Origin: Haliclona indistincta
Lineage: Eukaryota; Porifera; Demospongiae; Haplosclerida; Chalinidae
DNA: 64,000 nucleotides
Direction: 5' to 3'
Assembly (NCBI GenBank): GCA_964017065.1
Contig: OZ024788.1
Span: 8,403,202 to 8,467,201, forward strand
The position numbers and the translations under genes are program-made. Shown here piece after piece: positions 1 through 60,912 of the stretch (positions are counted from its first letter, which is position 1; each line of letters begins with the position of its first letter). The notes beneath the pieces were generated by a model. That model had not been told where the DNA came from. It searched no databases and worked only from the letters and a program-made list of their open reading frames with translations.

Positions 1-1411
1 CAAATGGGTCTTCAAGCGAAAGACTGGTCCTGATGGGTCTGTGACAAGACATAAAGCACGTCTAGTTGCCAAGAGTTGCTCACAGCAATATGGAACAGAT
101 TATGATGAGACGTTCAGCCCAGTGGCAAGGTTTGAGTCTTTACGCACACTACTCGCATTAGCTGCTCAAGATGATCTCAGTGTACACCAAATGGATGTAA
201 CAACTGCATTCCTTAACGGAGAGCTAGAGGAAGAAGTGTATATGGCTCAACCGGAAGAGTTTGCAGTACCAGGAAAAGAACATCTCGTGTGTCAACTAAA
301 ACACAGTCTGTATGGACTCAAGCAGGCTCCACGATGCTGGAATTCTGTACTTGACAAGGTACTAAAAGAAATAGGATTCATCCAATCTGCAAGCGATCCA
401 TGCATCTACATTGCAAGAGATGGGGAACCATTTCTCATTGGTGTTTATGTTGATGACATGCTACTAGCAGGAAAGAGTGAGAAATGCATCGATGAAATCA
501 AGTCAACCTTGTCAAAGAGATTTGATATGAAAGATCTCGGAGAGCTCAATCATTTCCTTGGAGTCCAAGTAGAGCAAAACCACAAAAATGGTACAATCTG
601 GGTTGGACAACCATTGTACACAGAAGAAGTATTGAAGAGATTTGGGATGGAGAACTGTAAACAAGTCGCTACACCTGTTGAAGCAGGAGTGAAACTGCAG
701 AAAGGAACTGAAGACAGTGAACGTGTCGACAAGTCACACTACCAATCGGTTGTAGGCAGTCTACTTTACCTCTCGACAAGAACACGACCTGACATAGCTT
801 TTGCTGTAGGTCTGGCTGCTCGTTTTGCTCTGATCCGACAAGTCAACATTTAACTGCTGTCAAACGAATTCTCAGGTATCTGCAAGGAACTACACATCAT
901 GGATTACTATTCAGAAGGAGTAAATCAAGTGAAATTGTCGGATACTCAGATGCAGACTGGGGTGGTGACAGAGATGACTCGAAGTCTACTAGTGGATATA
1001 TGTTCCAGATAGGAGGTACGGCTATCTCCTGGCAGAGTAAGAAACAATCATGTGTGCTCTGTCAACAGCTGAAGCTGAGTATGTAGCACTGTCCACAGCT
1101 GCCCAAGAAGCAGTATGGCTGAAACATCTAAATCACGATCTCACAGGTGCAGTTGCTCCTATCATGATCAACGAGGACAATCAGTCAGCCATTGCTATCG
1201 CGAAGAATCCTCAATTCCATGGCAGAGTCAAGCACATCAGCATTAAGTACCACTTTGTACGAGAACAAGTGAACAGCAATAACATCATGCTAAAGTACTG
1301 CCGAACAAGTGAAATGATCGCAGACATGCTGACTAAAGGATTGGGAAGAGTACAGTTTGAAAAACTGAGAAAAATGGCAGGTGTGTTACCACTGATTAAC
1401 AGTCACAAGTG
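1..1411 (+). pseudogene. Ty1/copia retrotransposon pol fragment (reverse transcriptase + RNase H), frameshifted
   Basis: The 3' part of a copia-type polyprotein. An open stretch at 41-853 has the copia reverse-transcriptase signature: QMDVTTAFLNGELEEEVYM, then SLYGLKQAPRCW, then the catalytic YVDDM box at about residue 140. RNase H follows at 1050-1412, with the copia-typical STAEAEYVALSTAAQEAVWL and a terminal DMLTKGLG. The two open stretches lie in different frames. The 853-1050 interval still encodes the expected connecting residues (LRYLQGTT, GYSDADWGGD) in a third frame, so there are at least two single-base deletions, near 825-830 and near 1050-1060. Integrase and gag lie outside the window to the left. 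The element cannot make an intact polyprotein as sequenced. The family call is secure. Whether the deletions are real or assembly errors is unknown. Confidence 0.93.
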
Positions 1412-1419
1412 AGAAGGAG

Positions 1420-2410: not shown

Positions 2411-3030
2411 GGATTTTATTCATGAACAAATCTGACTGGTAGTTGAAAACTATATGAATGGCAATGTTTGCTAGACCTTCTCCCACCGTCCATCCAATTA
2501 TCAGTAGGCCGCGTGGAGAGGGTCAGCTGCTAAACTAACTATCACTATGTGCTCCTGGTATAACCATAGACATAGTATCCCTTAGAGAGACTGGCAACAG
2601 GCAAAAATTTCACCGTGTTCCACGTTACAATTTAGCTTTGTATGAGTGTGTTGCACACTAGTGACTGTGCATAGATAATCAAACCGAGAATTTAAAGCAG
2701 CAGGAGATCGACACTAAAGAAGCGATCAACGATGAATGCAGTCTGTTTCCACAGACGGGCAGCTAAACTGGACGATAGAACGAATACTAGAACAGTTTCA
2801 GTTTATTTATCACTAGAAGAGCAACACACAAGTAGTGCAGTCAGCCAAGTTTCATCACACGGTAGCACTACACTTAGTCAATAACAGGACGCAGTATTAC
2901 ACTGATTCTGTGTGATTGCGTGTGGTCTGTGTTTGTATCAGCAAATTCTAGTCCAAAACTAAACCTTAAGCTAGTTACAGGAACACAACCACCTTTCAGA
3001 ACAAATCACAATGAAGCACCTTAGGTGTAG

Positions 3031-3702
3031 ATGCTTCGGTGGAATGACACAATAACCACAAACACAATTATCCACCATTCCACAAACACAGGAACCGCAG
3101 ATGGCATGTATACAGGATTTCTGTACAGCAATCACAATGCAGTGCTTTAGTTATGCAATCAGAAACATCAGTGCTGACCACAATTCAACTGGGCGTGTCT
3201 ACAGTGTTTAGCACAGCAGTCACGACTTCCATACATAGCTTCCATAGCTTGCTTACACAATTTCTCTGGACCTGCGCTGCTATCCTGTAGTAAAATTCTA
3301 ACCTATCAGCTTCTAGGTAGTCAACTGTTTATAACTTTGCCTCTGACAGCTGAGCAACAACCATGATCGATCGCGAGTGAGTAAACTCACGAACTAAGCT
3401 CCATTTAAAGTTTTTCAATGTTCTAAAGCGAGATAATACCATTTTCTACTTGCATTGCTGGTTTCAGAGCTTAACTTTCAGCGTACGCTACAAAACTGAA
3501 CCAGCCGTGAGCACTTACGCACTAAGCTTTAAAATCCTTCTTAAAATTCAAATTCGAGCAAGTATCAATTTCTACCCGTGTTGCTTGTTTTCAGTGCTTA
3601 GTTTTAAGCGAGCGCAGAGAATCGTTGCGACAGACAGAATGACAGACAGACGGAATGACAACACGACTACTGTATGCCTCGTGGCTTCGCCCACCGAGGC
3701 AT
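3031..3702. repeat. R1 repeat copy
   Basis: Begins TGCTTCGGTGG and ends CCACCGAGGCAT, giving an 11-12 bp terminal inverted repeat. The body includes CACAATGCAGTGCTTTAGTT, ACTGGGCGTGTCTACAGTGT and GTATGCCTCGTGGCTTCGCC, all shared with the array at 48885-51332 and the copy at 27357-27963. It is non-coding; the open frame at 3450-3704 is incidental. Confidence 0.85.
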
Positions 3703-7600: not shown

Positions 7601-7644
7601 AATCACACATGATAACTCACTTACTGACACTGTATGTACTGTAC

Positions 7645-7989
7645 CTTGAGGAGGAGGAGGGCAGGTGTCAATAATGGCTTTGGTGAGAGCTCCTGGTAGA
7701 CCAGCATCAGTGATACACTCAGCAAGTGCTGACCAAGTGCGTGGAACGGCTGAATCATCTGGGTCATCATCATTACGAGACAACCATTCCTTTAGGACTG
7801 TTCGAACAAACTCATCTTTCTCTTTGTATTCTTTTTCATATTTACTCACAAGAACATCGTCATTTAGTAGCATGTGAGCAAAGTCTGTGCATTTCCATTG
7901 TTCCAATGAAGTGATCCTCTGAATAACTTTAAGGCTAGATCCATCAGCATTCCTGAGATTCAGTAGCTGCTTATATGAGGGCCTGTCGG
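7645..7989 (-). CDS. Death-domain exon of gene A
   Basis: 345 nt (115 codons) with acceptor TATACAG and donor CTCAAG|GTACAG, both phase 1. The core reads as a Death-fold helix bundle: YKQLLNLRNADGSSLKVIQR..., DFAHMLLNDDVLVSKYEK..., then VLKEWLS...WSALAECITDAGLPGAL near the C-terminus. The W-x-x-L-...-L-x-x-A-G pattern near the end is the usual Death-domain signature. Death domains mediate homotypic assembly in cytoplasmic immune and apoptotic signalling. It lies directly downstream of the 2A exon 8221-8689 and has a near-identical paralogue at 51437-51775. After 2A skipping the receptor chain would start about 38 residues before this domain. Confidence 0.78.
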
Positions 7990-8220
7990 CTGTATAGGTG
8001 AAAATTCATAGTAAAAAATTAATTTTTTCATACAAGATCGGCCCAAATACACTAATTGTGGAGTAGGGCGAAGTAAAAGCTGTCAAGTTATTAGAATGAA
8101 TGCTTTTAAGGACGATTCGTAGATTAGAAACCTTTCACCTCTTACACACAAGATTTAGGCTCCAGGTTCAACAGCTTTTCCATACATATACAAGTGAAGT
8201 ATAAATGTAATGTCACTCAC

Positions 8221-8689
8221 ATGCTAGTGGTCCGGGATTTGTTTCCACATCACCGGAGATGATCAGAGCCTGAGAGATGATCACTATCAGTAGCATGAGT
8301 CTGACTAGAGCCTCTCGTAACAGACAACTACTAAGCAAGCCACGAACTTGAGAAAAGGAGGACCAGAATAACGAAAGGAGAGATTGCTGGAGTGAGCTGA
8401 CAGCTGATGAAGTGATGATGCTAGCTGAATGAGGTGATTTAGAGTCAGTGCATGTGTTTATACGAGCACGTGATGACGACTGACTGGCAGTAGATGGATC
8501 TTGAGTAGCATTACGTTCACGTTTGCGTCGGCGATGAAATTTGAAAGGGATGTAGGACGAGAATAGAGAAGACAGGAAAGCAGAGTAGCCCTTGCTGTTG
8601 AAGAGCCCTATTCGAGCTCGCCACAACTCCACAGTATTGGCGCCTTTCTTGCAATTGGAGGTGTGGTCAGTGCGGCATGCAGCATGCAC
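8221..8689 (-). CDS. First coding exon of gene A: hydrophobic N-terminal peptide ending in a 2A motif
   Basis: 156 codons plus one base, donor CAT|GTGAGT in phase 1. The product is Ser-rich with a basic patch (KFHRRRKRER). It ends in a hydrophobic segment (LVRLMLLIVIISQALII) immediately followed by SGDVETNPGP, the canonical 2A / StopGo motif, then LA and the splice site. In the paralogue (52035-52578) the frame starts 27 codons earlier at MSRLT. Here a 1-bp deletion and a 4-bp insertion between about 8690 and 8740 leave a stop in that frame, so the first usable ATG is the one at 8689 (MHAACRTDH). The family function of the N-terminal peptide is unknown. Related 2A-bearing NLR-type genes have been reported in sponge and sea urchin. 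Confidence 0.75.
8228..8251 (-). other. 2A ribosome-skipping motif DVETNPGP (gene A)
   Basis: The eight codons read Asp-Val-Glu-Thr-Asn-Pro-Gly-Pro, matching the D-V/I-E-x-N-P-G-P consensus exactly. The established mechanism is a missing peptide bond between Gly and the last Pro during translation. Upstream residues are hydrophobic, as in 2A-like sequences that double as signal peptides. Confidence 0.85.
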
Positions 8690-8739
8690 TAAATAGAACT
8701 ACCAAAAATTTAAATTCTTTGCAGTCAATCGGCTCATTT

Positions 8740-10227
8740 CGAACCTGAGTTTTACCTGACCGTCAACAATAAGTGATCAACTGTATATTTCAATTGTTTC
8801 CAAGACAGTGATGCATGTGATTGAAGAAAGCAAACACATCACTCATCATTTTTGTGGTATATATTGGATATCACATTGGCTTTGGTAATTATATAGAATA
8901 ATGGACGAATAACCTCAACACTTCAAATTCAGTTCTGAAAGAGCTTGATACATTTTGATACTGATTCCAGGAGTGAAATAGTACAACACAGTGATTATAC
9001 TTGGACATTCTGGAGTCAATATGTATAAAATCAATTAACCCATGAGATTTAGAGCTTTAATAAATCTCTGCTGGATTTTGTCCTGGGAAGCTAAAAATGC
9101 TCTTGTAAGCTGAGGTGCAAGAAGCAGTAAAACGATAAAAAGTAAAGTAAAAAAGATTTAATTAAAAAAACAGAAAATTGTAGGAATGACGACACTTGCA
9201 AAAGTAAAGGCTTGAAACGCGGAACAAGGCTTGAAAAGCGGGAAAGGAACAAGATGGGATGATGCTTGCAAAAGTAAAAGAACTTAACTTTTTACTGTCT
9301 TCCTTATCTTATTTGCTTTATCACTACACTTGCCCTTGTTTTGTGTAATTTTTATAAAAGTAAATAATATAGAAAAAAAGAACAAAATGGAATAATAATT
9401 ATGCTTCAAAATTAAAAGTCCCAAGTATCCCTGCATCAGCGGCTTGGAGGACACAGTCTGGTGAAGTACTTGACGGTTTCAAAGCTAGAGGTAGTTGTGT
9501 TTTGGAGGACACAGCCGGGACTTTTAGTTTTGCAAATAACATATTATATTCCATCTTGTTCCGGCATTTGCAAGCATCATCCCATCTACAATTGTGCTTG
9601 TTACATTCAACTTACAAAATGTAGTAAAACTATTAACTGAAATCGTAGATTCTATTATGATCTACCAAAGAAATGCGTGTAGAGCTTAGTTATTGTGCAC
9701 AATGAAGATAAGTGTGACATAATTTAATAGCTACAAATATGAAAAATGGACTTTTGAACACAGAGAAAGTGTAATAAATTATTATGGAACCAATAAGACT
9801 ATAAGCTGAAGATTCCACTGACAGTGCTAGGGAAATAATTAGGGATAGAATGAGGAAAAGGTGCTTTGATCTTCCATGGTGAGAAACTAGGAATTCAGGA
9901 AGTAAGTAATCATGGTAAATTTTGTGAAAATAATTTTGCTGCTGTTTTTACAGTGCAATACACATCTACTCTTACTAAGAATACACATGAAAAAAATCAG
10001 AAATGACAATTTATGTGTTGGATAAATAATAGCTATGAAAAGCACTTTCACTAGCGCCAGCAATACAATTTACCGGGCCCAGTGACAGTTCAGTCCAAAA
10101 ATACACATAAAGCACCACATTGAGTGTGGCTGATAACTTGAATTTAAACTAAGATCCAGTATAAATACAGTGAAAAGTAATGTACAGTTGCATTACAGAA
10201 CTATTATAGTTGAACATAGACTACACA
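8740..10227. other. Intergenic stretch between gene A and the NLR tail, with one foldback relic
   Basis: No exon recognised. 9143-9592 carries a collapsed copy of the foldback element of 38046-38920: a left part with CAAGATGGGATGATGCTTGC, one unit of GGAGGACACAG..., and a right part with GCAAGCATCATCCCATC. All of this lies inside the duplicated block; the matching stretch is at about 52.6-53.95 kb. Confidence 0.7.
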
Positions 10228-11530
10228 TCAAAAGTATTCAATGTTCAGATTTTCCCGAATTTTGTGTTTTCTTTCGAATTGTTCAAAATTCTTGCTTAGT
10301 CGTAACAGCCTAATGGTATGATGTTCATTCACAACACGAATCAGCTCATTGCAGTGATTGCAAGCTCTATCATGATATCTGCACAATACTATCAAAGTTT
10401 CAAGGCGACACATTCTGCTACTCTCTTTTATACCGTCAACTAAATGTTGTACAATGGAATCGTCTTGATTTCTAAGAGCGCAATATTTTAATGTGCAACT
10501 GGATCCAATTCCCTTCACCAACTTGTTAACGCTAGATCTGTCACAACCTTCATTGTACTTGGGAAGTAATAGCAAAATTTCCTCTAAGACACATTGTAGT
10601 GACTGAAAGAAATCATAAAGGGTGGTACAGGCATCATCAGGAATCGTACAAGAATCGATCTCTAACCTTTTTAGACAATTAGAAACCTTACAGTGAGTGA
10701 AGTCAGGTATGAAAGTCAGCCAAGACAGATGAAGACATTCAACTTTTGATGAAATTAATTGTGAAAAAGTAGGAAATTCATGATTTCTTTCTCTAAATGC
10801 TACTTTTATCGTATGGTTAATTGGACATGCCTGCAGTTGTTTAAATATGTCTGAAACATCAATCGTGTTGTAATAGTAATACCCATGTGTATAATCAAGA
10901 CAGAAATGAATTTCCTTCGGTGGTGAGCTCAAGGATGCAAAGACTTCAAAAAGGGACTTGAGACCTGCTATACATGTACTTGTCTGAGAATTGAATTGTA
11001 CATTGAGTACTTTTAGTAGTGGAAAGAAGAGGAACAACTTGGTATAATCTTCTGCTAGTTCAGCTATAGTGAGTTCTGTTACTCTTTGGGTATGAGGGTA
11101 TAAGAATGGCTTATTGATGATATCATCCAAGTGCATACTCATTTCTATTATATGCCCAATACTACAGTAGCCGTTTGAAGACATATCGAGACCTTTGGAA
11201 AGTGCTTCAAGATTTTCCTCACATGTAGTTTCGAGCAGCCATGATCTGTTGCTGTGTGGAATGCAATAGCCAGTCACAAATAAATCTAGTGAAAGGTCAG
11301 ATCTTAGTATACTCAGGAGACCGTCTTTCTCAGTCCATCTTGTTGCTGGTATGTCAAGGTTCAGTAAAGAAAACGTTTGACGAATAAGATCTGGTGATTG
11401 AGCCTCATAAAGCAAATGCATTGTTGATAGTAATACATAGTTGAGTAGTTTTTACTAGTTTCAAGAATTCTTGAAAGAGCTTTATTATCCCAGCTAAGTT
11501 TTGTTAGGCCTACCGTAAATATTGCTGTCC
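10228..11530 (-). pseudogene. Severed 3' end of an NLR gene (LRR-like region)
   Basis: A 397-codon open frame (10228-11421) begins at an internal Met (HLLYEAQSPDLIRQTFS) that corresponds to the middle of the C-terminal region of the NLRs at 53951 and 58185. Upstream, 11440-11530 still encodes FTVGLTKLSW and RILETSKNYS, but in another frame. Relative to the paralogue there is a 2-bp insertion near 11430. Homology stops at about 11530, next to unrelated sequence. No NACHT part and no promoter remain. The C-terminal region shows spaced Leu motifs (LKRLEIDSCTIPDDACTTL) like degenerate leucine-rich repeats. It is a duplication-truncated relic and probably not expressed as a receptor. Confidence 0.85.
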
Positions 11531-15341: not shown

Positions 15342-17620
15342 TTATTCAATTTTGTCTGTACCAAAAGGGACTAGAATTTGAGGAACAAATATAAGGGGAG
15401 GGCGACTTCTCTTTTTTCTTTCAATATTCACTTTTTCTTCTGTCTCGTTAAGTGAAAGTAAAACTTGTTCAGAATATCGGTACATACTATTGGTACTAAA
15501 ATAAATATGTATAATAAGCTGTTCGACCATACAGGACTCAAGTGAAGACATGAGACTTTTCCCGCCATCTATCAAACTTTTGATACATTGTTCTGTTTCT
15601 TCTGGTGTGAATTGCTTACACGTATGAAATGTATAAGGCAACACAGTTAATTTTTTGAGTTTACTCATTTTCTTTGCATACTCTCCAATTTTCTCCAGTG
15701 ATTTGTCATCATGTGGTGATGACCAACACAATTCCAGCTCCTCCAGTGAATTTTGTCTTGACAGTGATTCCAGCAGTGGCTCGAGTTTTTTGTTTGTTAC
15801 AATGCCATTACCGATTTTTAACATTTTTAAAGTGCTGATGGAGGTAAGATCTAGAGCTTTAGCAAAACAGACAAGCCCAGTATCTGTGTAAGTATTTTCA
15901 ATTGCAGAAAATGTCTCCAAAGACTCCAAAACACCAGAATCAGAGGATGTCTGCTCAGAAGAAAGTCCGAGTAGCAGACTAATGGAGGCATCATTTAGGC
16001 TACATGAGTTGAGATTTATCGATATAATTCCTTTTTTCATTCTTCCAACGGAGGACAGGAAGTATTGTAATGAGAGACAGTCCATTGGAGTCAAGGAAAT
16101 GCTGTTAAAATCCATTTCCAATCTATGCGTATTAGTGATTTGCTCATAAAATGCCTGATCAATTATCATTTGTGCTTCAAAGAAACAGTTTATAATAACT
16201 AAAAGTACATGTCTGTGCAATGCTCTGCCAAACGTTTGCTCATCAGCATCACGTCTCTGGAATTCATTGACAACAAGGTTTTGTACACCCTCATTGGTGA
16301 GGCCGGTCAGACCACTGTAGAACTGGAGTACCGGAAACATGCGATCGATTTTCAATAGATTTTTGAACTGTTTAGAATGCTCTGCTGGTTCTAACTGAGA
16401 TATAAAGTAAGCAGCAAGAAGCTCTTGGACTGCTAGATGAATAAAGTTGCAAGTGACTAATTTTTTACCAATTGATCCAAACCCCTGGACACTATGAAGC
16501 AGACCTAATGTAGAGAGTGATGTGAGTTCCTTCTGTGTAAAAACAATCTTATTCTGTATCATTCCCTCAAATGCTAGTTTACTGAGGTTGTGTAACTGTT
16601 CCTTGAGATCAGCAGAGAGGTCCTCAAATGAAGAGACAACTTCAAGGGCACTATCAAGTTGCCGAGTTTTCAGTTCACGAACTATGCAGCATAATACGAG
16701 CTCTTGAAACAGCTCACATCGAGTGATGGGTAAGGTCTTGTTGCGATAGAGGTATATATATGCTAGAATGGCAGCATTCAGAGGCACATAGCAACAGCTT
16801 TCAATCACTGGGTAACGATGGAAATGATCACTTAGTTTATCACAAGCTAATTTCACTTCACTATCACTGGACAGTTGGGACTCTAATGCTACCTTAAAGT
16901 AATTATGAATATTATTCTTTGAGAAGCCAAGAATTTCTACCCGGTTAGCTAGATTGTGAAGATTCAACGAAAAGTCAGGTCGAGAGGTTATTAATATTGT
17001 AGTTAGTGGAGAAACTGATTGCAGGCTTTTGAGAATTAGTTTGTGGATACTTGCTGGAGTTTCGTCCCAGCCGTCCAAGATGAAGAGAGTCTTTAGCTCG
17101 ATAAAGAAATGTCTGATCATTTCTGATGACATTTGCTTATCACTAGCTAGAAAGAGAAGGTGAGGCAAGATACGATCAACTTCACATACATCGTGTTCAT
17201 TCAAGTCTCGTAGACGAACAAGCACCACAGCATCAAACACACTAAAGCTTCCTTCAGCCCATTTCTTGGCATATTGGTAGGCAAGACTTGTTTTTCCCAT
17301 TCCGCCCACTCCTTCAACTAGAATCACCTGATGGTCAGTGTCAAAGGTGCCAGCATCAAAGATACTATCGGAATCTACAGGTATATATACCTTTTCTTTC
17401 TCTACATCTCCTCTCACTCTGCTCTCAGCAGTTGTCTCAATGTCACATGCATATCGCTTTCCTTTCCTCTTTATCATGGCTAGTTTGACATGGCTACACT
17501 CAGGGAGAGGGTCCCAGGTTGGAGGTTGGGCTTTACTATACACCTGTCGAAGGTGGGTCACAAATTCAGCACAGTAGTCTTCCTTCGGATCTGGTGGCAA
17601 ACCATCATCACTTTTCTCAC
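15342..17620 (-). CDS. NACHT-LRR exon of an intact NLR gene (terminal exon)
   Basis: A single uninterrupted exon of 758 codons plus stop. A start at the Met 28 bases upstream (17648) would lie in the intron. The acceptor CTACACAG at 17621-17628 puts the exon start at G|GT GAG AAA in phase 1, matching the donor phase of the upstream exons. Domains (numbering from that Met): Walker A GVGGMGKTS at about 113-121; Walker B TLFILDGWDE at about 187-196; ITSRPDFSL sensor at about 230; winged-helix/NAD part to about 480; Leu-rich repeats from about 545 to 700 (SINLNSCSLNDASISLL, LEELELCWSS). NACHT ATPases with LRRs act as cytoplasmic sensors that oligomerise on ligand detection. No disabling change was seen. 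The N-terminal adaptor exons are proposed at 25018-28924, about 7.4 kb upstream across a transposon-filled intron. Confidence 0.92.
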
Positions 17621-17628
17621 CTGTGTAG

Positions 17629-18230
17629 TTATAAAAATAATAATTCATTCACTGCTAAGCTTAAAAATTTTTAATTCCTTTTTGTGGGTGCTCTTGAAGT
17701 GCAAAATTATTCTCGCAATAATTACAATGCATTATTATTACATAGTACGTCATCTTTCACCAATCGGATTGCTCTATTCGAGGGCATTAATGTAGGTTAT
17801 TGACCGCGCGTAGCGTCTTCTATAGCAACAGACCGTTGCGTTTTTGCGAGTTTGAAAAATTCGTGATGTTATTGCGCTTACAGTGATGACCTATGTAATA
17901 AATCATTTATTGCCCTACACAACTCGGGCATTAACCGACATTAATGACCTCGGGAAAGTCGGTTAATGCCCTCACGTGAGGCCAATAACTAATACTTAGA
18001 GCACAAAATTTTTGTATACGAAATCAAATTTCTGTCATCTGGGCAAAAATGTGAAAAGTTTACGTAAGAAAACAATTTTACGCTGTGCAGTATTATACGA
18101 ATAGTTAATAAAATTACAATATGTACAGCACACAGACAAATCTCTATGTTAGCAGGCCTCGACGGCCTGTCTTCTCATCTGTGTTAGGCAAGGAGAACAT
18201 AAAATAGTCCAGTTGTGCAATGTTGCAGTT
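17629..18230. other. Intronic stretch with a short hairpin
   Basis: No exon seen. 17926-17973 forms a dyad, GGGCATTAACCGAC / GTCGGTTAATGCCC. Several GCATTA / TAATGC blocks suggest an unclassified repeat from about 17780 to 17995. Confidence 0.5.
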
Positions 18231-25179: not shown

Positions 25180-25231
25180 CTGTAATAGTATCGTTATAGT
25201 TATAAATGTAGTAGTATCAATAAGAATGTAC

Positions 25232-25285
25232 CTTTAGTATCATTGTTATAAACACTCTCTACTGCAGGACTTGTAGCATGGGTAC
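25232..25285 (-). CDS. Short linker exon of the NLR gene
   Basis: 54 nt (18 codons) between acceptor TTCTTATAG and donor CTAAAG|GTACAT, phase 1 on both sides. Product THATSPAVESVYNNDTK is polar and spacer-like. Confidence 0.55.
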
Positions 25286-25345
25286 CTATAAGAACATAAA
25301 ACAAAACAGCTAGTACAGTGTATATTGAATAGAATACACTACAAC

Positions 25346-26026
25346 CTTCATTAGAAGCAATACGTAGACCAATCACAAGTTCAAGGACACCGAGACCAGC
25401 CAAATGCTTTGACGACAGTAGCTCAGCCTTCTCTCTCAAAATAGGGACCAGTGACACAGGAACAATCCAAGTAATGAGCACACAACCTTCTTCAGTACCG
25501 CAATGGATCAAAACCTTGTAATGAATACCAAAAAAGTGATAGATGAGTTTTTTTAATGCCTTAAGAGTGTCGTCGGTTCTGGTTTCATCTAGTTTTATTG
25601 TAACAGTCTCCACTTTGCTGCTGTCACTTATCTTCGTTTTCAAAACATCCTTAAATTTCTTGACAGAAGTAATCGAGAGGAAGTGATCAAGCTGCTCTCT
25701 GTACTCCTCTATTGAATGTTTTGCGTCACAACTACAGAATTTGTCACGACTCATATTAAGAATATCGATGTTGAAGAAGTAAATCTTCAAATGTTCTTTA
25801 AGAATGTCAATGACATCATCTAACGTAGAACATTGCCGTATCGACTTTTCATCACACAAATCAGATAAGAAAGTTTTGAGGTAACGGAACTTATCCTCAG
25901 GTAGCACTGTGGTTCTTAGTACTAATAGCATGCCAGCATAGTTCTTCATGAGAGTAAGAAGACTTTCAGGAACCTCAGGACCTGGTTTAACCATGACTTG
26001 AATAGGACCATGATGACTAGTGAAAC
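25346..26026 (-). CDS. Uncharacterised conserved domain of the NLR gene
   Basis: 681 nt (227 codons); acceptor GACTGTAG; donor AATGAAG|GTTGTA (weak after GT), phase 1. The first part is helical (ESLLTLMKNYAGMLL..., YLKTFLSDLC...); the second part has KVETVTIKLDETRTDDTLKA, then EEGCVLITWIVPVSLVPIL and a final VLELVIGLRI. The same order of motifs occurs in the product of exons 42355-42619 plus 41916-42292 (KVRVKLKLD, GIEVGCIALHLW, VLQVFIGEKL). I do not recognise a named family. Its position between a Death domain and NACHT suggests a regulatory or scaffold module. A hydrophobic stretch in the downstream intron frame (FYSIYTVLAVLFYVLI) is probably intronic. Confidence 0.72.
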
Positions 26027-26078
26027 CTACAGTCAGCAACATGAATAACAATGAGAAGTACGTGGCCAACAGACTGAC

Positions 26079-26147
26079 CTCCTTCAGGATTCTGAACTAG
26101 GTCTGGAACTTTAAGTTTACAAGATGCAATGATTTCTTCAGCAGGCC
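26079..26147 (-). CDS. Short linker exon of the NLR gene
   Basis: 69 nt (23 codons), acceptor ATAACCCAG and donor AAGGAG|GTCAGT, phase 1. Product PAEEIIASCKLKVPDLVQN... joins the Death exon to the uncharacterised domain. No known motif. Confidence 0.6.
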
Positions 26148-27350: not shown

Positions 27351-27356
27351 ATACCT

Positions 27357-27963
27357 TTCTGTACAGCTATCACAATGCAGTATAATAGTTATGCAATCAG
27401 AAGCCAATCAGTGCTGACCACTAATTCAACTGGGCGTGTCTATAATGTTCAGTTCAAGTGCATGGCACGGCACAGCACACGAGCGAGATAGCGTCCATAG
27501 CTTGCTTACACATTTTCTTTAGACATGCGCTGCTATTCTGTAGTGAAATTCTAACCTATCAGCTTCTAGCTGTGAATAGTTTTGTCTACTAGATCGCCAG
27601 CAGCGGCCATCGATCGCGAGGTAAATAAATTACACCTGAGAACGAAGCATACAAGTCTGCCACGCTGTTCTGAAGTAAATACAAACTCACTAGCTGTAAG
27701 GCAGCCAGCAGTAGACAATTTTGTCTTTATAGAAATCCACATCACCAACAACAGCCATCCAGGGTGTGCAATTCACGCTGGTAACTTACGCACTAAGCTT
27801 TAAAATCAAACTTCTTGAAATTCAAATCCGAGCAAGTATCGATTTCTACCAGTTTACTTGTTTCAGTGATTAGTTTTCAGCAAGCGACGAGAAATAATTG
27901 CGACAGACTGACAGAATGACAACACGACTACTGTATGCCTCATAGCTCTGCCCACCGAGGCAT
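27357..27963. repeat. R1 repeat copy, 5'-truncated
   Basis: Begins inside the element (TTTCTGTACAGCTATCACAA) and ends normally (CCCACCGAGGCATA). Shared body motifs: CAACTGGGCGTGTCTA, TTCTAACCTATCAGCTTCTA. Confidence 0.82.
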
Positions 27964-28557
27964 AAAAATGCGCTGACTGCCAACAGATAGGTAGAAATCA
28001 CAGACGAAATTTGCAAGAGTACAAATCTACTGTCTGCTGTTTGTTTTGTTTTAGTGAACATAGCGGCTAGAGGTACGGTACTGTTTCTTTAAAATACTGC
28101 TTAAAGAGCCGGTAATATCTCATGCACCATAATTATATAATGTATACGCATTTGGAGCCCTACAAATAACAATAATTATAACCGTGGTGTTAGCAGCGGT
28201 AGTGGAGTAGTGAGCCAACGTATCTGGGAGTGTCATGGTGTGCTTGGTGGTGGGTCTACTGTTTTTCTCTTAACTTCTTCTTAACTCTACTGCTGTTCTA
28301 CACCAGGCTTTAGTCTTGAGTTTAGGGTTTAGTTTTCGTGTTTCACTTTATGCTTTGCATGTCGGCACCTGTAGCCACGCCCATTACTGACTGGCTCTTT
28401 AAGCAATATTTTAGATAACCGGTACCGGACCTCTAGCCCCAGCCTTTATCATCAGTGGGCGCAGCCGGGTACCATGCATGTAATTGTGTTATTATTACAC
28501 TAAAATACCATTATGCAACTACATGCACTAAATGTATTACATCAAGATATTTCTCAC

Positions 28558-28924
28558 CTTCTTCGTCTGAAGAGCTACTACTCTCAGCTAGCAACAGTTC
28601 GGTGACTTTCTCTTCGAGATCACGTGAGCCACACTTTCGAAACACTTTACACAATCTCTTGTACGTGGCCTTTGTTCCTTGTTTCTGCTTCCATTTTCTC
28701 AGCATCGCGATCCTCTGAGCAGGTACAGAATGAGGATTTGCTCCTAGTATAGCGATTTCATCGGCTTCTGTTAGCCCAAGATAAGGAGAGACCAATCGCC
28801 AATCGACAATCTTCTCGGAAATTTCAGCTAAATGCTCGTCTGAACATAGATCATGTGGTGCCTGTGGTAATGCCAGCGATGTCCTTTGAGACGTAATTGA
28901 ATTTTCAGAAGAAATTTCTGCCAT
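28558..28924 (-). CDS. Death-domain exon of the NLR gene (start codon at 28924 or internal)
   Basis: Open from ATG 28924 to donor GAAG|GTGAGA (122 codons + 1 base, phase 1). Typical Death fold: ISEKIVDWRLVSPYLGLTEA at about 35-54, then IAILG, RIAMLRKWKQKQGTKATYKR and LCKVFRKCGSRDLEEKVTEL, followed by a SSSSDEEG tail. Death domains recruit adaptor kinases or caspases by homotypic contact. Two readings are possible. (1) It is the first exon, giving with 26079, 25346, 25232, 25018 and 15342 a 1203-residue NLR. (2) An acceptor ATTCAAG just before TTATGG joins it to the upstream exon chain at 30790-52578. Both keep the frame. Confidence 0.85.
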
Positions 28925-28962
28925 AACTTGAATGAGATTGAGAATAAAGGGTTAAGTAATTA

Positions 28963-41841: not shown

Positions 41842-41915
41842 CTGGTAAAACAGAAGTTGGCGGCACTAAATTTATAGCACAGAGAATGATCATGGTTAGA
41901 TAGTAAAATCATTAC

Positions 41916-42292
41916 CTGGTAAATTGTTGTAGACAAGTTTCTCTCCAATAAACACCTGAAGCACTCTATTGTCAGTAAGTATCTTAGTAGCATTAGCAAT
42001 GAAAGACTCCAATTCTTCAATGTCTGAGGTGGAGCACCATAGGTGTAGGGCAATGCAACCAACTTCAATTCCCGAAATGTGAAGACCAGGAATACGAAAT
42101 TTAAGAACTAAATTGTTCAGTTCTGCAACAGTTTCATTTTCCCAGAAATTATCGAGCTTTAGTTTTACACGAACCTTTCCAGCTGACAACTCCGATGTTG
42201 GGAAAATTTTTTTGAATTGCTCCACTCTGGTACTGGTCATAAATTGTTTTAGTTGCTTCTCGTAATTTTCTGAAAGTGTCATGGTGGCATTG
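41916..42292 (-). CDS. Uncharacterised conserved domain, second half
   Basis: 377 nt, acceptor ATCTACAG in phase 2, donor TACCAG|GTAATG in phase 1. Contains YEKQLKQFMTSTRVEQFKKI, GKVRVKLKLDNF, HISGIEVGCIALHLWCSTSD and a final VLQVFIGEKLVYN. It parallels the second half of exon 25346-26026 motif by motif. In that copy no intron splits the domain, so an intron was gained here or lost there. Function unknown. Confidence 0.72.
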
Positions 42293-42354
42293 CTGTAGAT
42301 ATTAATAATTATTGTTAAAAAAACACTTTATGCACATTATTACATGTAGCTTAC

Positions 42355-51332: not shown

Positions 51333-51436
51333 ATCAAAGGACTAGCTCACATCACATGCACAGTGTTCCACAACTTATTCCTTGCTTGTATGTTGTTGCA
51401 TGTCATGTGAACATAAAGGTGATGTGTACACTGTAC

Positions 51437-51775
51437 CTTGAGGGGGACAAGCATCATTGATGGCTTTGGTGAGAGCTCCTGGTAGACCAGCATCAGTGAT
51501 ACACTCAGCAAGAGCTGACCAAGTGCGTGGAACAGCTGAATCATTTGGGTCATCATCATTACAAGACAACCATTCCTTTAGGACTGTTCGAACAAATTCA
51601 TCTTTCTCTTTGTATTCTTTTTCGTATTTACTCACAAGAACATCGTCATTTAGTAGCATGTGAGCAAAGTCTATGCATTTCCATTGTTCCAATGAAGTGA
51701 TCCTCTGAATAACTTTAAGGCTAGATCCATCAGCATTCCTGAGATTCAGTAGCTGCTTATATGATGGCCTGTCGG
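51437..51775 (-). CDS. Death-domain exon of the second 2A gene
   Basis: 339 nt (113 codons), acceptor TATACAG and donor CCTCAAG|GTACAG, phase 1. It differs from 7645-7989 at a few positions (e.g. WLSCNDDDPNDSAVP) and has two fewer codons in the Pro run near its end. Death fold with DFAHMLLNDDVLVSKYEKEY and WSALAECITDAGLPGALTKA. The next exons in phase lie at 45088 and 42619. Confidence 0.8.
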
Positions 51776-52034
51776 CTGTATAGGTGAAAATTCATAGTGA
51801 AAAATCAGTTTTTCATACAAGACTGGCACAATATACTAATTGTGGAGTAGGGTGCAGTAAAAGCTGTCAAATCATTAGAATGAGTGCTTTTTATGTGATG
51901 TTATTGACGATTAGTAGATTAAAAACCTTTCACCACTTACACACAAGGACAGCTTTTTCAAGTGAGTGAGGTAAGTGAGGTATAAGTGTAATGTATAAGT
52001 TATACAAGTGAGGTATAAATGTAATGTCACTCAC

Positions 52035-52578
52035 ATGCTAGTGGTCCGGGATTTGTTTCCACATCACCGGATGTTATCAGAGCCTGAGAGATGATCACTA
52101 TCAGTAGTACGAGTCTGACTAGAGCCTCTCGTAACAGACAACTACTAAGCAAGCTACGAACTTGAGAAAAGGAGGACCAGAAGAACGAAAGGAGAGATTG
52201 CTGGAGTGAGTTGACAGCTGATGAAGTGATGATGCTAGCTGAATGAGGTGATTTACTGGTCTGGAGTTGTGTGGAGGAGTCAGTGTTCGTGTTTATACTA
52301 GCACGTGATAACGACTGACTGGTAGTAGATGGATCTTGATTAGCATTACGTTCACGTTTGCGTCGGCGATGAAATTTGAAAGGGATGTAGGACGAGAATA
52401 GAGAAGACAGGAAAGCAGAGTATCCCTTGCTGTTGAAGAGCCCTATTCGAGCTCGCCACAACTCCACAGAGATCATAGTCTTGGCGCCTTTCTTGCAATT
52501 GGAGGTGTGGTCAGTGCGGCATGCAGCAATAAATAGAACTACCAAAAATTCAAATTCTTGTGCAGTCAATCGGCTCAT
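52035..52578 (-). CDS. First coding exon of the second 2A gene: hydrophobic N-terminal peptide + 2A
   Basis: 181 codons plus one base from ATG 52578 (MSRLTAQEFEFLVVLFIAAC, an apparent hydrophobic start) to donor CAT|GTGAGT, phase 1. Features in order: hydrophobic N-terminus, Cys-containing CRTDHTSNCKKG, basic KFHRRRKRER at about 68, Ser/Thr-rich middle, hydrophobic LVRLVLLIVIISQALI at about 155-170, then SGDVETNPGPLA. An upstream peptide of about 178 residues would be released, and the Death-domain chain would start with Pro. It is the intact version of the exon at 8221-8689. Confidence 0.8.
52042..52065 (-). other. 2A ribosome-skipping motif DVETNPGP (second copy)
   Basis: Eight-codon match to the 2A consensus, base-identical to 8228-8251 and preceded by a hydrophobic segment. 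The two copies differ just upstream (ALIISG versus ALITSG), so the core is unchanged while its neighbourhood has begun to diverge. Confidence 0.86.
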
Positions 52579-53950: not shown

Positions 53951-56726
53951 CATAAACTACCTATCAAAGTATTCAATGTTCAGATTTTCCCGAATTTTGT
54001 GTTTTCTTACGAATTGTTCAAAATTCTTGCTTAGTCCTAACAGCCTAATGGTATGGTGTTCATTCACAACACGAATCAGGTCATTGCAGTGTTTGCAAAC
54101 TCTATCATGATTTCTACACAATACTATCAAAGTTTCAAGGCGACACTTTCTGCTACTCTCTTTTATACCGTCAACTAAATGTTGTACAATGGAATCGTCT
54201 TGATTTCTAAGAGCGTAATATTTTAATGTGCAACTGGATCCAATTCCCTTCACCAACTTGTTAATGCTAGATCTGTCACAATCTTCATTGTACTCAGGAA
54301 GTAATAGCAGCATTTCCTCTAAGACACATTGTATAGTGACTGAAAGAAATCATAAAGGGTGGTACAGGCATCATCAGGAATCGTACAAGAATCTATCTTT
54401 AACCTTTTTAGACAATTAGAAACCTTACAGTGAGTAAAGTCAGGTATGAAAGTCAGCCAAGACAGATGAAGACATTCAACTTTTGATGAAACTAATTGTG
54501 AAAAAGTAGGAAATTCGTGATTTCCTTCTCTAAATGCTACTTTTATCGTATGGTTTATTGGACATGCCTGCAGTTGTTTAAATATGTCTGAAACATCACT
54601 CGTGTTGTAATAGTAATACCCATGTGTATAATCAAGACAAAAGTGAATTTCTTTCAGTGGTGAGTTCAAGGATGCAAAGACTTCAAAAAGGGACTTGAGA
54701 CCTGCTATACATGTACTTGTCTGAGAATTAAATTGTACATTGAGTACTTTTAGTAGTGGAAAGAAGAGGAACAACTTGGTATAATCTTCTGCTAATTCAA
54801 CAATAGTGAGTTCTGTTACTCTTTGGGTATGAGGGTATAAGAATGGCTTATTGATGATATAAATTATCATTGAAGTGCATTCTCATTTCTATTATATGCC
54901 CAATACTACAGTAGCCTTTTGAAGACATATCGAGACCTTTGGAAAGTGCTTCAAGATTTTCCTCACATGTAGTTTCGAGCAGAAATGATCTGTTGCTGTG
55001 TGGAATGCAATAGCCGGTCACAAATAAATCTAGAGAAAAGTCAGATTTTGGTATATTCAGAAGACCGTCTTTCTCAGTCCATCTTGTTGCTGGTATGTCA
55101 AGGTTCAGTGAAGAAAAAGTTTGACGAATAAGATCTGGTGATTGAGCCTCATAAAGCAAATGCATTGTTGATAGTAATATAGGCGAGTAATTCTTACTAG
55201 TTTCAAGAATTCTTGAAAGAGCTTTATCATCCCAGCTAAGTTTTGTTAGGCCTACCGTAAATATCACAACACTCTGGTGATGACAATGACAATGACAGCG
55301 ACAACGACGATCTGGTGATTCACTGACAATCTGGAGATGACAACGATAATCTGCTGAAAATTCCCTATAGCAATAACAAGAAAGAAAATGCTCAAGAGGA
55401 GATGGTAATAACAACATCTTTTGTAGTCTTTCTGCCGTGTTTTGTAGTGAGCAATAGTAAGCAGCAAGATACTCCTGTAAGGTGAGGTTTAAGAAGCAGT
55501 AGGATTCTGAGCTCTCCATACCTGAATACACTTCGTCCACTTTCTGCATCAAGCCAAATGTTTAAAAGTTTATTGTGGTAAATTCTGAACCTAGAGTTTC
55601 AAAATCCTTCGGCACATCAAAAACATATATTCTTTCTTCTATCCCTCTTGCTGCAAGATGTGCTAGTGCCATAAAAGATTCCTTTGCCTTTTCTGGCAAA
55701 TCAAATAATTCCTCGATATACAATTTCATCAAACTATATTCAGGGTGGGTGCTTAAGTATCGTAGCAATAGTGTACGTACCAGGTCAGTATATAACTCTG
55801 TTAGAGTATTGGGAGAAAACTCTGTATCACCATGGTTCCAATGGAGCCGATAAAGGTCTGTTATCATGACACACTGAGCTGGTATGTGCATTAGAGTGTG
55901 TATGTATGGATGAGAGGACAAGAAGGAATTAAAATCAGTGAACAATTTACTGTCATCACTGATAGCCGAAGCAATATAGTTGTCTATACTTTTGTTTGTG
56001 AAACAAGATACTTGAATGTGATGATCATGAGCATCATAATGTGGTCTACAACTAACCTTGCTAAGAATCATTAGAGTTGCACTTGGCAACAATTCTATAT
56101 TTAATAGCTGATGATCGACAGAGCCTTTTGGTGGAAGCTGTAATTGCTCATTAAGCTGATCAAGACATTCAATGATGAAAAGAACTCGTTCTTCAAAATT
56201 TTCCAAGTCTTGGCAAATCTGAGTGGTTACTCTTGGATCATGATAAAAAAGAAATTGACCTAGTATTCTAGCTTCACGAACATGCTGATTACGTAAATTT
56301 ATGAGAATAACAATTGACCAGTCTTGAAGGAGCTCTGCGCTAGCCCAGTTTTGACACATTTTCCAAGCAAAAGCAGATTTACCTACACCAGGAGCACCTT
56401 CTAGCTATAGATGTTACCAGATTTGTTCATTTCACTCAAGTCGGCCAGCTTGCTTTTTCTCCCAGGTTTATAATTGTGTAACCTTAAAGAAATGAATTCT
56501 TCTTTTTCTTTAGACCTCAGGGTCTCATAGGAGCAGTCAAAAGGATTTTTAGGGTCCTTTACATATACAAAGTACAAGAAAAGATTGAATGGCTGGTAGT
56601 GTCTTAATGAAGGCTCCTCAAAATATCTGCTATTTGTTTTGTGAGTATACACGTGCTTGAGGTAAGACTTGAATTCATCTAAAGGATGCAGATCATGTTT
56701 TTTAGATGAAGGAAAGGTATTCAATG
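53951..56726 (-). pseudogene. NLR (NACHT-LRR) pseudogene
   Basis: One former exon (acceptor TTTTTACAG, phase 1, after 56726) parallel to the NLR at 58185-60806. The NACHT parts are readable: FKSYLKHVYTHK, a Walker A (GAPGVGKSAFAW, about 56365-56400) and Walker B VLFIIECLDQ. At least four lesions: a frameshift directly before Walker A (near 56400); an in-frame TAA at about 55560 where the paralogue has Glu before TFGL; a frameshift near 54860; and a 2-bp TA insertion near 54332. A His/Cys-rich insertion (CRCHCHCHHQ, about 55270-55330) comes from a GACAAT-type microsatellite. The C-terminal region ends RENLNIEYF. No N-terminal adaptor exons were found upstream. Confidence 0.88.
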
Positions 56727-58184
56727 CTGTAAAAATAGAAACAAATAATAATTATTATTATTGTATAGAACTAGTGTGCCGTTGAAGCATACATATAGGG
56801 CCAGTACAGCCATGGCAGTACTGCCAGTGGTAATTTAATGAAAGTTACAAAATTATGAACAGATTTCACAAAACCCTCAGTGTTTAATGCACGTTGTAGT
56901 ATTAGGTCCTGGTTAGTATTAGTGCCAAACTGCTAGCTATGCATGTAGTGCTAACCGGAAGACAGCACCACAAAGTGTGTCACGTGGGCGTGACCGTAAA
57001 CATGTGAGTAGGTAGCATCTATATGCACCCTCAAAGCTATCCTGCTGCTTAGATGGAATTTACAAGTACCTAGATAGTCAACTATGGGCGCCTTTGTTGT
57101 CAGAGAGGTCAAAGACTGCGGTCAATGCCAGGTGAGCCAGCCATAACTTGAGAACAAAAGAACTTCAGCAAAATCCAAGAGTCTCATTTCAAGCCATTTT
57201 TGTGCTAAGCCTGTTCATACCTTTACCAAGTTTGAGAAGTGAGCGGTGGTCTCTGTAGCTTGATGGACAGAATGAACGAATGAGGATATGAGTAAATGAC
57301 AGAGAAAGTCAGTACCGTAACCCGGCATTTGGTCCCTCAGCCATGAATTCAAAGAGAAACAAGAGCAAATATCATAACAATGCAGCACGATTGCAGAAGA
57401 TCAGATGAGCTAAAAATTGAATCTAGATAGAGATTGTGAACAGTGTGGTGGAACTCTGTGATCTGTTCTATTCTGATTGGTTCTAATCTCGCATATCATT
57501 ACATGATTTAATTTGTAGTAACAGCTGAATACTCACCTTTGACCTTACCTACGCTACAAACTGTTACCTAGTTTCTGCAATAATTATCTATTGAGCCTCT
57601 AATTCAATATTTTTGATGCCCTAGTATAACCCGCAAATCTTCATTAAAGTGACTGTCTCAGATTGTCAGTATCAGAGACATGCATGCAACCATGAGAAAT
57701 CGATGAAATTAATAATACAGGTACAATTCCGTGATTCCTGCTTCTGAATGAAATTATTTAATGTTAATAATAATTATTATTATTAGCATTCAAAAACAAA
57801 AAGGAGAGCCCATGATGGAGGCATAGTTCCCTTGTTCTTCTTTAATTTTAACTACTACATGTAGCTTTCTTTTTTTTATTATGTATTTTTCCCCTACACC
57901 TTAGTGCTACTGTTTTATTATTACTCGGCAGTGAATTCAGCATTACATTTTGAAACCAACAACGACAATAACTATTTCTATAACTTGTGACATAATTATA
58001 AAAAATTAATAATTTATTATGATTGAGAAAAAACACTTCTTATTAATAATATAGCATTTTAATACAGAAAATCATAAAAATTTAAAAAACAATACAAAAA
58101 TTATACAATGTATTTTATGTTATGTACATTATACATGGATGAGAAAAATATCATGTAGTCTATGTACATGATACCGTCAATACA
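56727..58184. other. Intergenic stretch between two NLR genes
   Basis: No exon or known repeat recognised. It is AT-rich toward 57.7-58.15 kb, probably the 3' flank of the NLR at 58185. Promoter elements cannot be identified by eye. Confidence 0.5.
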
Positions 58185-60806
58185 TTATCTGACATAAGTG
58201 CACAAGCAGTCTGTTTCAATGTTGAGGTTGTCTCGGGTATCACATTTTCGTACGGATTCTTCAAAATTGCTGCCTAGTCTTAAATGTGTGATCGTATTGT
58301 GCTCATAAACCACAAGAATCAACTCGTCAAAATATCCTTGTTCTAATTTTCGACAAAAACTCGAACAAATCACTGTCAGATCTTCAAGACGAGACTGACT
58401 TGAGATAATTTTCATACCAGTAACTAAATGTTGTACAATTGAACCACTAAAACGGTTGAGAACGCAACGTTTGAGTGAGCGGCTGGATCCGATTGCTACT
58501 AATAACTTGTCAGGAATACCGTACTGCAGATGATCAGGATCATACAGTTCAAATGATTCCAAAACACAATCTGTTGACTGAAGGAAATCAATGAGGGTAT
58601 CGCAGGCAACATCGAGAATCTCACAAGAACGGAATACCAAGGTTTTCAGAGAATTAGGTTTTCTTAGAAAAGGATCAGGTCCAAGTGTGGAACAAGAAAT
58701 ACTAAGGCTTTCTAGCTTAGGTGAAATTGCAAATGGAGGTATATACCAATGTTCATTAAATCTTGCAACCCCTTTAAACTCAAGATGCTGTAGTGAATGA
58801 CACTTTCTCAGTTGCATTAAATCAGTATCTATCGACAAGTCTAGGCAAAGCATTTTCAATGACCTCATTGAAGGAAGATTTTTAACAAGAGAAACAAAAG
58901 ACTTTGAGAATCTGAATGTTTTCACTGTGAGTGTCTTTAGTAGAGGATAAAGTGATGGAAAATCACTGTAAGATTCTTCACTATCATTAGGTATGCCTAT
59001 ACTGAGCTCTGTCAGTTTCTGGGTGTGAGGGTGAAGCAACCTTAACACTGAGATACCAGAATTTACATTTCTCAATACTACAATATGTCCATTACATTGG
59101 TTTGAAGACATATTGAGGCCTTTGGAAAGAGCTTGAAAGTGATCTTGAACAGTATGCACAATTCCTCTTAACATTTCATTGTCAAGCAGCCATAATCTAT
59201 TACTGTGTGCAATACAATATCCAACAACAAAAGAATCTAGTGGAGACTGTTGAATATCATAACGAGGAACTTCTAAACGGTTAGGATCATTAGCTGATGG
59301 TGCCTCTAAAGTTGAAAAAACTTGACGAATGAGATCAGGTGATTGAGTTTCGTAAAGGAGATGAAAAGATGAAAACACTTGAGAGATTCTATTGGTTTCG
59401 ATGCTTGCTTTTACTGAGTCCAACAGTGAACAGCACAACAGTGCAGTGATCATACTTGGAGAGACTAGAGTCAATTTCATAAGCATGAGGTTTCAAAGCG
59501 TCTTGCAGAATCTGTGATGGCTTTTCTAGCTGGGAATAGTAATAAGCAGCTAAATATTCTTGTAAGCTAAGATGCAAAAACCTGTAAGACACTGAACTAC
59601 TTGTGTCTGAACTTGTTGTCATTGTACGCACTGTATCATCTGGATATGCATCTTCCACCTTCTGTATCAAACCAAATGTTTCAAAATCAACTGTTTTGAA
59701 TTCTAATGTTTCAAAATCCTTTGGTAAGTCAAACACATACTTGCTCTCCTCTATTCCCTTTGCTGCCAGATGTGCTATTGCCATAAAGGAGTCTTTAGAT
59801 TTACCTGGTAGATCTGTGAACTTTTCTATAATCGGCAACTCCATCTGACCATACCCATACTTGTGGTGGTTGCTCAGGTATTGTACCAACAGTGCACATA
59901 CCAGGTCAGTGTAAAATTCTGTCAAGGTATTAGGAGAATATTCTTTATCACCATGGTTCCAATGGAGCCGGAAAAGGCTTGCTATCATAGCACTATGAAC
60001 AGGTATGTTCATCTGAGAATAGATCAAAGGGTGCGAATTAGAGAGGTATAAAGACTCAAGAGCGACTAATAAGTCACCACTGCAAGCTGATTTGAAGTAA
60101 TGGTCTACGTTAACACCAGAAATTACAATTTGCTTGTTTATGCCTAATTTAGATGCTAAAGTCTTAAGCTTGTTATCACGCCATGATTTTACTGGCCTGC
60201 TGAGAACCATTAGAGTAGCATTTGGAAGCAACTCTTTATCAACAAGCTGCTGAAAGACCGAGTCACTAATCTGCTGTTCATTTACTTGATCAAAGCTATC
60301 GATGACAAAAAGAACTTGTTTTCCTTCTGTAGCTAAATCTCGGCAAATCCTCTTTCTCACTGTTTTTTCAGGATAATAGATAAAGTCACTGAGTGACTGG
60401 GCTTCTCTAACACATTGATTGCTAAGCTGAATGAAAATAACGATTGACCAGTCTTGCAAGATTTCTTCATTAGCCCATTTTTGACAACATTTCCAAGCAA
60501 AAGTCGATTTGCCTATACCAGGATCACCCACAACTAAGATGCCTTTAGCTGGTTCGGTACTGCTATGCTTGTCATCAGTACACTTGCCTAAGTCACTCAT
60601 TTTAATCTCCTTCTTCTCTGATAAATCATTCCTGCTGTACATGTATATGTCAACCAGCCACAATGATATGAATTCTTCTTCACTCGAGTCTAAAGAAAGC
60701 TCTTCAAAGAAATTAAGAGATTTTTCTCGTTGCTGGTATACATGTTTAAGGTATTGTCTGAAAAGCTCCATTGGTTCATCTTTAGTCGGCTGAAAAGTTA
60801 GTGGTT
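58185..60806 (-). CDS. NACHT-LRR exon of an NLR gene, one frameshift
   Basis: A single exon after acceptor TTTTTACAG (phase 1). Part one (60771-59389): helical ELFRQYLKHVYQQREKS, Walker A GDPGIGKST at about 82-90 from the first Met, Walker B VLFVIDSFDQV, MVLSRP sensor, YRFLHLSLQEYLAAYY at the winged-helix end. Part two (59486-58185): HLLYETQSPDLIRQVFS, then Leu-rich repeats (LESLSISCSTL, LKTLVFRSCEILD) to the stop. The parts lie in different frames; the switch is at about 59409-59412, in the run AAAA of the coding strand after LFTVGLS. An extra A would explain it, as a recent mutation or an assembly error. The rest is free of lesions. Cytoplasmic sensor role inferred from the family. Confidence 0.88.
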
Positions 60807-60912
60807 CTGTAAAAATGTAATATCTACATTCAAAGCAGCATTATACACTATGTATTGTATGTAACAAAAAATGTACAATGCACCTGAATTCTAAAATCTG
60901 TACTTTCATAAC

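Follow-up and report, generated by a model that had tools for sequence, protein, structure and literature searches.

A candidate 2A ribosome-skipping peptide at the end of a predicted leader exon ahead of Death-type and NACHT sequences in the sponge Haliclona indistincta

A stretch of 64,000 nucleotides from the sponge Haliclona indistincta (C6:8403202-8467201 of the 144 Mb assembly; here called the window) carries two minus-strand copies of SGDVETNPGP, an exact 2A core, in two genes that are named A and B below. In both genes the core closes a predicted leader exon and a Death-type exon follows. The question raised by this locus is whether the leader and the receptor-like protein behind it are made as one polypeptide or as two. 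The motif, its conservation in relatives, its linkage to Death and NACHT sequences and the place of a hydrophobic segment before it can be read directly from the DNA. The reading preferred here is that the ribosome skips the Gly-Pro bond at the end of the motif, which would give a leader and a Death-domain immune-receptor-type protein from one mRNA; its probability is put at about 0.6. The features of both genes and of their surroundings are summarized in Table 1.

Table 1. Features of genes A and B and of neighboring sequences (window positions)
Feature	Position	Strand	Remarks
Gene A 2A core SGDVETNPGP	8228..8257	-	Predicted skip between Gly (8233-8231) and Pro (8230-8228)
Gene A hydrophobic 19-residue segment	8255..8311	-	Kyte-Doolittle mean 2.41; ends 8 residues before the skip point
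Gene A leader-exon open frame to inferred donor	8221..8698	-	Conserved start codons deleted
Gene A short leader, 23 codons	8228..8296	-	Sole in-frame ATG from which the frame stays open to the 2A
Gene A inferred phase-1 intron, 231 nt	7990..8220	-	GTGAGT...CAG
Gene A Death-type exon	7644..7989	-	96% identical to gene B exon; 3' end set by eye (CAAG/GTAC donor)
Copy of the 3' part of the NLR-type unit	10228..11451	-	DNA 95% identical to 53881-55264; without NACHT; shows duplication of the unit
NACHT open frame, 768 aa	15342..17648	-	Pfam NACHT 6e-17; weak NLRP1 and NOD2-type PDB matches; place in gene B by order only
Gene B leader, 145 codons, MISVELWRARIG to NPGP	52042..52476	-	
Gene B conserved N-terminal block, MISVELWRARIG-like	52415..52476	-	dN/dS 0.32 (30 loci), 0.34 (six copies); invariant columns in 24 relatives
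Gene B hydrophobic segment before 2A	52069..52125	-	Mean 2.26; helix predicted at the same place in relative P0007
Gene B 2A core SGDVETNPGP	52042..52071	-	
Gene B inferred phase-1 intron, 259 nt	51776..52034	-	
Gene B Death-type exon	51435..51775	-	AlphaFold pLDDT 86.9 and fold matches; 3' end approximate
Second NACHT-bearing stretch, upstream of gene B	53957..56751	-	Frames interrupted
Neighboring NLR-type gene	58185..60840	-	NACHT frame 59389-60840, then a frame without Pfam or PDB match

The two copies in the window

According to the initial annotation, gene A has an exact 2A core with a hydrophobic stretch on one side and a Death-type exon on the other, and this was confirmed (8257-8228). 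The codon pattern of the motif was absent from 100 shuffles of the window, as compared with two real copies, and the assembly as a whole contains 189 sites with the exact pattern and none with the reversed pattern that served as a control. Chance occurrence was rejected on these counts.

Genes A and B belong to one duplicated unit, since block 7638-8856 is 89% identical to 51430-52702 and block 10143-11522 is 95% identical to 53881-55264. Judged from its sequence, gene B is the intact copy and gene A the weaker one, with the conserved start lost. The nine bases missing in gene A as compared with gene B are exactly the Met-Ile-Ser codons, and one further base is missing just after the upstream ATG. 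The whole open frame that carries the 2A of gene A runs from 8213 to 8698 on the minus strand. Seven ATGs occur between 8800 and 8228, and the only ones in frame are those at 8737, where a stop follows after 12 codons, and at 8296. The leader of about 150 residues that had been proposed is therefore not supported for gene A, where Met-Ile-Ser is deleted and the frame opened by the upstream ATG is closed by a stop; it holds for gene B and for the family. The ATG at 8296 corresponds to a V-to-M difference and would open a 23-codon in-frame leader, similar in length to the short leaders found on C1 (MICALTQRLLLLSGDVELNPGP type).

The chances are about even that gene A alone is a pseudogene, whatever the rest of the family does. 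The lost Met-Ile-Ser codons, the frame-shifted upstream ATG and the Copia-like ORFs that lie ahead of the next NACHT all point to decay, which is countered by an intact 2A, donor, acceptor and Death exon, by the 96% identity of this exon to that of gene B, and by the short leader that the V-to-M difference provides, about as short as those on C1. The next NACHT after gene A is about 20 kb away in the downstream direction and falls beyond the window (C6:8389914-8391305). The Copia-like ORFs, recognized by eye, are on the plus strand at window positions 793-1412 and at C6:8394342-8403200, between the gene A Death exon and this NACHT.

Downstream of gene B, the next NACHT on the same strand is the frame 15342-17648, about 34 kb on, and a Death-domain ORF (28511-28951; Pfam E 5.8e-11) intervenes. 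This ORF has its own ATG and no 2A motif in frame, and lies upstream of the NACHT frame. Two minus-strand open frames between gene B and the same NACHT (41896-42692 and 25200-26096) match no Pfam family above the cut-off. Dispersed repeats with units of about 200-1050 bp, 77-94% identical, were seen in the window at 48873-50958, 3015-3500 and 27356-27965.

Conservation and layout of the leader

The gene B leader frame has 56 matches in the genome on six contigs, and all 48 that reach the C-terminal end carry the exact 2A, with a query that itself contained the 2A. Among 54 database relatives of this leader, 50 keep DxExNPGP, one has NPCP and three have lost or changed the core. A search with the alignment gave 412 leader relatives; among the 120 matches listed, 72 were new, of which 71 keep the core and one has NPGL. 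In the two sets together the motif is kept in 121 of 126 relatives. Upstream of the core, Ser or Ala is present at position 10 in 121 of these 121 motif-bearing leaders, Gly9 in 119 and Leu13 in 104. For the sea-urchin protein SpNLR2A6 it was reported that mutation of L13 substantially lowers skipping (PMC4981915; residue numbering inferred from P3A, which is NPG to NAG). These positions are thus largely kept, Leu13 and Gly9 in agreement with published mutants. The motif is likely to be a skipping peptide.

The alignment of 24 relatives consists of a head with invariant M, I, W, R, A, I and G, a variable middle and a conserved tail. Beside the values for the head given in Table 1, pairwise dN/dS on 30 loci was 0.57 in the middle and 0.55 in the hydrophobic part; the value of 0.05 for the 2A is biased, as the loci were chosen by the motif. 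For six copies on C6 the middle reached 1.39 and the hydrophobic part 0.38, and the 2A codons of these copies had pN 0 and pS 0.167. The head of the leader seems, from these ratios, to be constrained in its own right. Matches to the leader were not found in the PDB, and Pfam searches with 24 leaders gave matches at chance level only.

The best 19-residue window of all 121 motif-bearing relatives reaches a mean hydrophobicity of at least 1.6 (median 2.38) and ends at a distance of no more than 15 residues (median 8) from the skip Gly, on its upstream side. Leader length ranges from 113 to 294 residues, with a median of 151. The net charge upstream is positive in 118 of the 121 relatives. A second window of this kind was found in two of them, and a single hydrophobic helix near the C-terminal end with none elsewhere, as in a tail anchor, in 119. 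The model of the P0007 leader contains helices at 4-14, 85-94 and 110-135, of which the last has the highest confidence (block mean about 91); most of the chain is predicted at low confidence (mean 58.6).

When leaders of all types were scored at the fetched genome loci, 35 of 50 rows reached 1.6 and 15 remained below it (L009, L011, L023, L025, L027, L029, L030, L032-L038 and the broken L044; the frame of L031 was too short to score). The leaders of low hydrophobicity include short ones (L030, L032-L038) and three that head Death exons (L011, L023, L025). Because 15 of 50 lack a membrane-length segment, a tail-anchor function cannot hold for all leaders. Since some 2A leaders of the genome are without such a segment, the 2A does not appear to require it, and it may represent an additional function.

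The Death-type exon and the NACHT genes

The earlier proposal of a fixed splice boundary agrees with the place of the junction predicted from the splice consensus, which recurs unchanged at 24 of 24 distinct loci where a Death-like exon lies downstream of a 2A. At each of them the best GTGAGT-like donor, picked by script within 20 nt, starts 7 nt after the NPGP codons in phase 1, and at 23 the open frame is regained in the Death-like exon through an AG acceptor. The predicted join in both window genes is DVETNPGPLAS-DRPSYKQLLNLRNADGSSL. The constancy of this phase-1 junction is notable, even for one derived from consensus. Death matches among the 24 loci are 28-31% identical at L019, L020 and L024, and short remnants at L048 and L049. 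The D(V/I)ExNPGP core typical of 2A-NPGP peptides lies in frame, and the reading frame runs on past the final Pro, in genes A and B only across the inferred intron. At the loci L035 and L036, leader, 2A and Death-type sequence share one open frame for which splicing is not needed; Pfam Death scores 19.9 bits at L035 (E 8e-4), below the cut-off of 22.6.

Pfam Death made no call on the Death-type exons of the window, and among 27 relatives two were weak hits (best 0.0059). A Death match at E 0.001 was not found with Foldseek, and the PDB sequence search with leader and Death profiles gave no match at E up to 1. The predicted structure of the gene B exon is a Death-fold helical bundle with fold matches (Table 1), and the exon after the 2A is thus, at the level of the model, predicted to fold as a Death domain.

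Downstream of at least 68 of the 189 2A sites, the same strand carries a Death exon no more than 1.5 kb away (33 sites) or a listed NACHT no more than 10 kb away (47 sites), and 12 of these sites have both. In 200 random sets the mean was 0.92 and the highest count 4, and flipping the strand gave none; a stricter first version of the linkage had found 44 of 189. The figure of 68 is a lower bound, because the NACHT lists covered part of the candidates (in one, 102 of 631 were scored, and in another 88 of 622, with 15342-17648 added by hand). A compact order of 2A, Death and NACHT within 3 kb was observed at L039 and L041-L043, where the 2A is followed by Death at 81-88 nt and by NACHT at about 1.1-2.2 kb. 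An array on C6 (8.327-8.565 Mb) holds 13 2As, 13 NACHTs and seven Death exons; a NACHT comes before the next 2A for 12 of the 13 2As (one such NACHT having been added by hand), and one NACHT follows another. A 2A ahead of a Death or NACHT gene is thereby found at dozens of places in the genome; genes A and B are tied to NACHT by order only, and their NACHT end is a prediction.

The neighboring NACHT frames of the window have Pfam values of 6e-17, 1e-15 and 1e-16, and their best PDB match is NLRP3 (4e-8). The NACHT of the gene at 58185..60840 is the next one after a 2A at C6:8469274, just outside the window. Leucine-rich repeats (LRR) were not detected by Pfam in the frames tested, nor by PDB search in 58185-59492; the frame 15342-17648 gave a weak PDB match to the C-terminal part of an NLR (E 0.002), and a further PDB search for LRR in window frames yielded only weak matches to TGF-beta receptor type 3. 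An NLR-type cluster apparently without exact 2A leaders was seen on C9 (0.78-1.11 Mb), where at least 19 NACHT places occur, none of them near the four exact 2A sites of C9.

By the partial lists, 121 of the 189 sites have no link to Death or NACHT. One of them, at L029 (1501-3022; C1:10355416), follows a short hydrophobic run and precedes a 476-aa ORF in another frame with a DUF6570 match (E 1.5e-18). This domain we take to belong to Helitron-like elements, and L029 is possibly a 2A in such an element. L009 (C1:1599820) has a 2A frame similar to that of L029. Seventeen exact 2A sites with short open frames lie within about 15 kb at L051 and L052 (C4:10637345-10652476), partly in tandem arrays of an 804-bp unit (x 2.3) and a 1300-bp unit (x 3.6). 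An origin of the C4 array from copies of spliced mRNA was considered and dropped: similarity to the true genes breaks off at the splice point or no more than 8 nt from it, and the array therefore gives no evidence of splicing. At L048 and L049 (C6:8565314/8562905 and C7:4322000/4324266) two leader-2A exons stand in tandem, 2.3-2.4 kb apart, with a short Death remnant after the first; these may be alternative first exons or products of decay.

Known 2A systems, rival readings and meaning

The statement of the initial annotation that 2A-like motifs are known from invertebrate NLR genes agrees with the published leaders of sea-urchin NLRs (PMC4981915). In that work, by Roulston et al. 2016, 2A-like sequences were reported in 85 of 241 NLRs of Strongylocentrotus purpuratus, and 14 of 87 sea-urchin NLR entries at NCBI had a 26-residue N-terminal 2A. 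For SpNLR2A6, skipping was estimated in vitro at about 80%, and the protein went mainly to the Golgi when skipping was blocked (PMC4981915). The words 'Sponge' and 'Amphimedon' are absent from the text of the paper (PMC4981915). A 2A-NLR of sponges was not found in the literature that was covered, with most subscription journals outside that coverage; sea-urchin SpNLR2A is the one such system in it. The Death-NACHT families of the sponge Dysidea avara are large, as they are here, and neither 'ribosom' nor 'signal peptide' occurs in the main text of the paper on them (PMC12909245).

As in SpNLR2A, the D(V/I)ExNPGP core stands N-terminal to Death/NACHT-type genes, with a hydrophobic stretch directly upstream and Leu at position 13. 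The share of genes is also alike, about a third: 85 of 241 there, and here 46 of 140 listed NACHT places with a 2A no more than 10 kb upstream. Unlike the 26-residue sea-urchin leader, that of gene B has 145 codons, in which a conserved MISVELWRARIG-like block is followed by a variable middle, for which disorder is predicted, and by a membrane-length helix at the C-terminal end; gene A could have 23 codons. The 2A of the sponge further differs in its 3'-terminal place within a predicted exon, with the recurring phase-1 junction, in another genome. What is new is the length of the leader and its tail-anchor-like layout, together with the recurrence of the splice junction; NLR leaders with a 2A were known from the sea urchin. 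The core is also that of viral 2A and 2A-like (2A-NPGP) oligopeptides, but here a single 2A follows a long leader in a cellular gene, ahead of an immune-receptor-type gene and without a polyprotein.

On the preferred reading, the products of skipping would differ in their fate. A hydrophobic segment near the catalytic center of the ribosome is, by the length of the exit tunnel, still inside the tunnel and hidden from SRP. With the 2A in the peptidyl-transferase center, the hydrophobic segment, about 10-28 residues back from the final Pro, would therefore still be in the tunnel. Skipping would then release a long leader with its sole hydrophobic helix at the C-terminal end, and the Death-NACHT protein would go on as a cytosolic chain starting with Pro. 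Tail-anchored membrane proteins are a class with a hydrophobic helix at the C-terminal end. The leader that skipping is predicted to leave resembles them, with a positive N-terminal part and one hydrophobic helix about 8 residues from the C-terminus; it differs in that this C-terminus would be made by ribosome skipping and not by a stop codon, and its insertion into a membrane is a prediction. When no skip occurs, the receptor would remain fused to the emerging helix and be pulled by it toward secretion, as in SpNLR2A6. In gene A only a 22-residue leader may be formed, or the gene may be decaying. That one mRNA feeds two compartments is plausible. A further step is tentative: skipping may build a tail-anchored partner in equal numbers with a cytosolic Death-NACHT receptor, with the WRARIG head in the cytosol and the middle free to evolve, and the two may form a two-part, two-compartment immune sensor.

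The 2A might instead be a leaky switch tuned for dual targeting of the receptor, cytosolic when skipped and secretory when not, with the leader as only a signal. This has been proposed for the sea urchin on the basis of SpNLR2A6 (PMC4981915), and the hydrophobic segment directly precedes the 2A here as well. It is nevertheless a rather doubtful account of the sponge genes, as the N-terminal block far from the 2A is constrained too, by its dN/dS and its invariant columns in 24 relatives (Table 1), which would be needless for a mere signal, and as some 2A leaders of the genome are without a membrane-length segment.

It is very improbable that the motif is non-functional and was kept only through recent exon duplication. 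Many copies are indeed close duplicates and the leader of gene A is already damaged, but the 2A is retained in relatives down to 33-48% identity while its codon usage varies among the genome copies, and it is found in leaders of quite different look. Least credible of all is that the leader-2A exon belongs to a transposable element and not to a host gene: 2A sequences are known from non-LTR retrotransposons, where they too lie in frame within cellular genomes (PMC4981915, PMC11512398), and one 2A of the genome precedes the DUF6570 ORF of Helitron-like look, but a Death exon and not a reverse transcriptase or endonuclease follows at both window loci, for which such an origin was rejected, and a Death exon also at 22 others, the C6 array interleaves 2A and NACHT, and for 24 leaders Pfam gave chance-level matches and the PDB none.

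If skipping at the 2A works as preferred here, a translational device known chiefly in viruses, in retrotransposons and in a single gene family of echinoderms recurs in the NLR-type genes of another genome, with several kinds of leader. This would mean either a very old or a repeated recruitment of 2A by immune receptors, and annotation of such genes as single polypeptides would be wrong. The purpose of the leader would then be directly testable, as the same genome has 2A leaders with and without a membrane-length segment.
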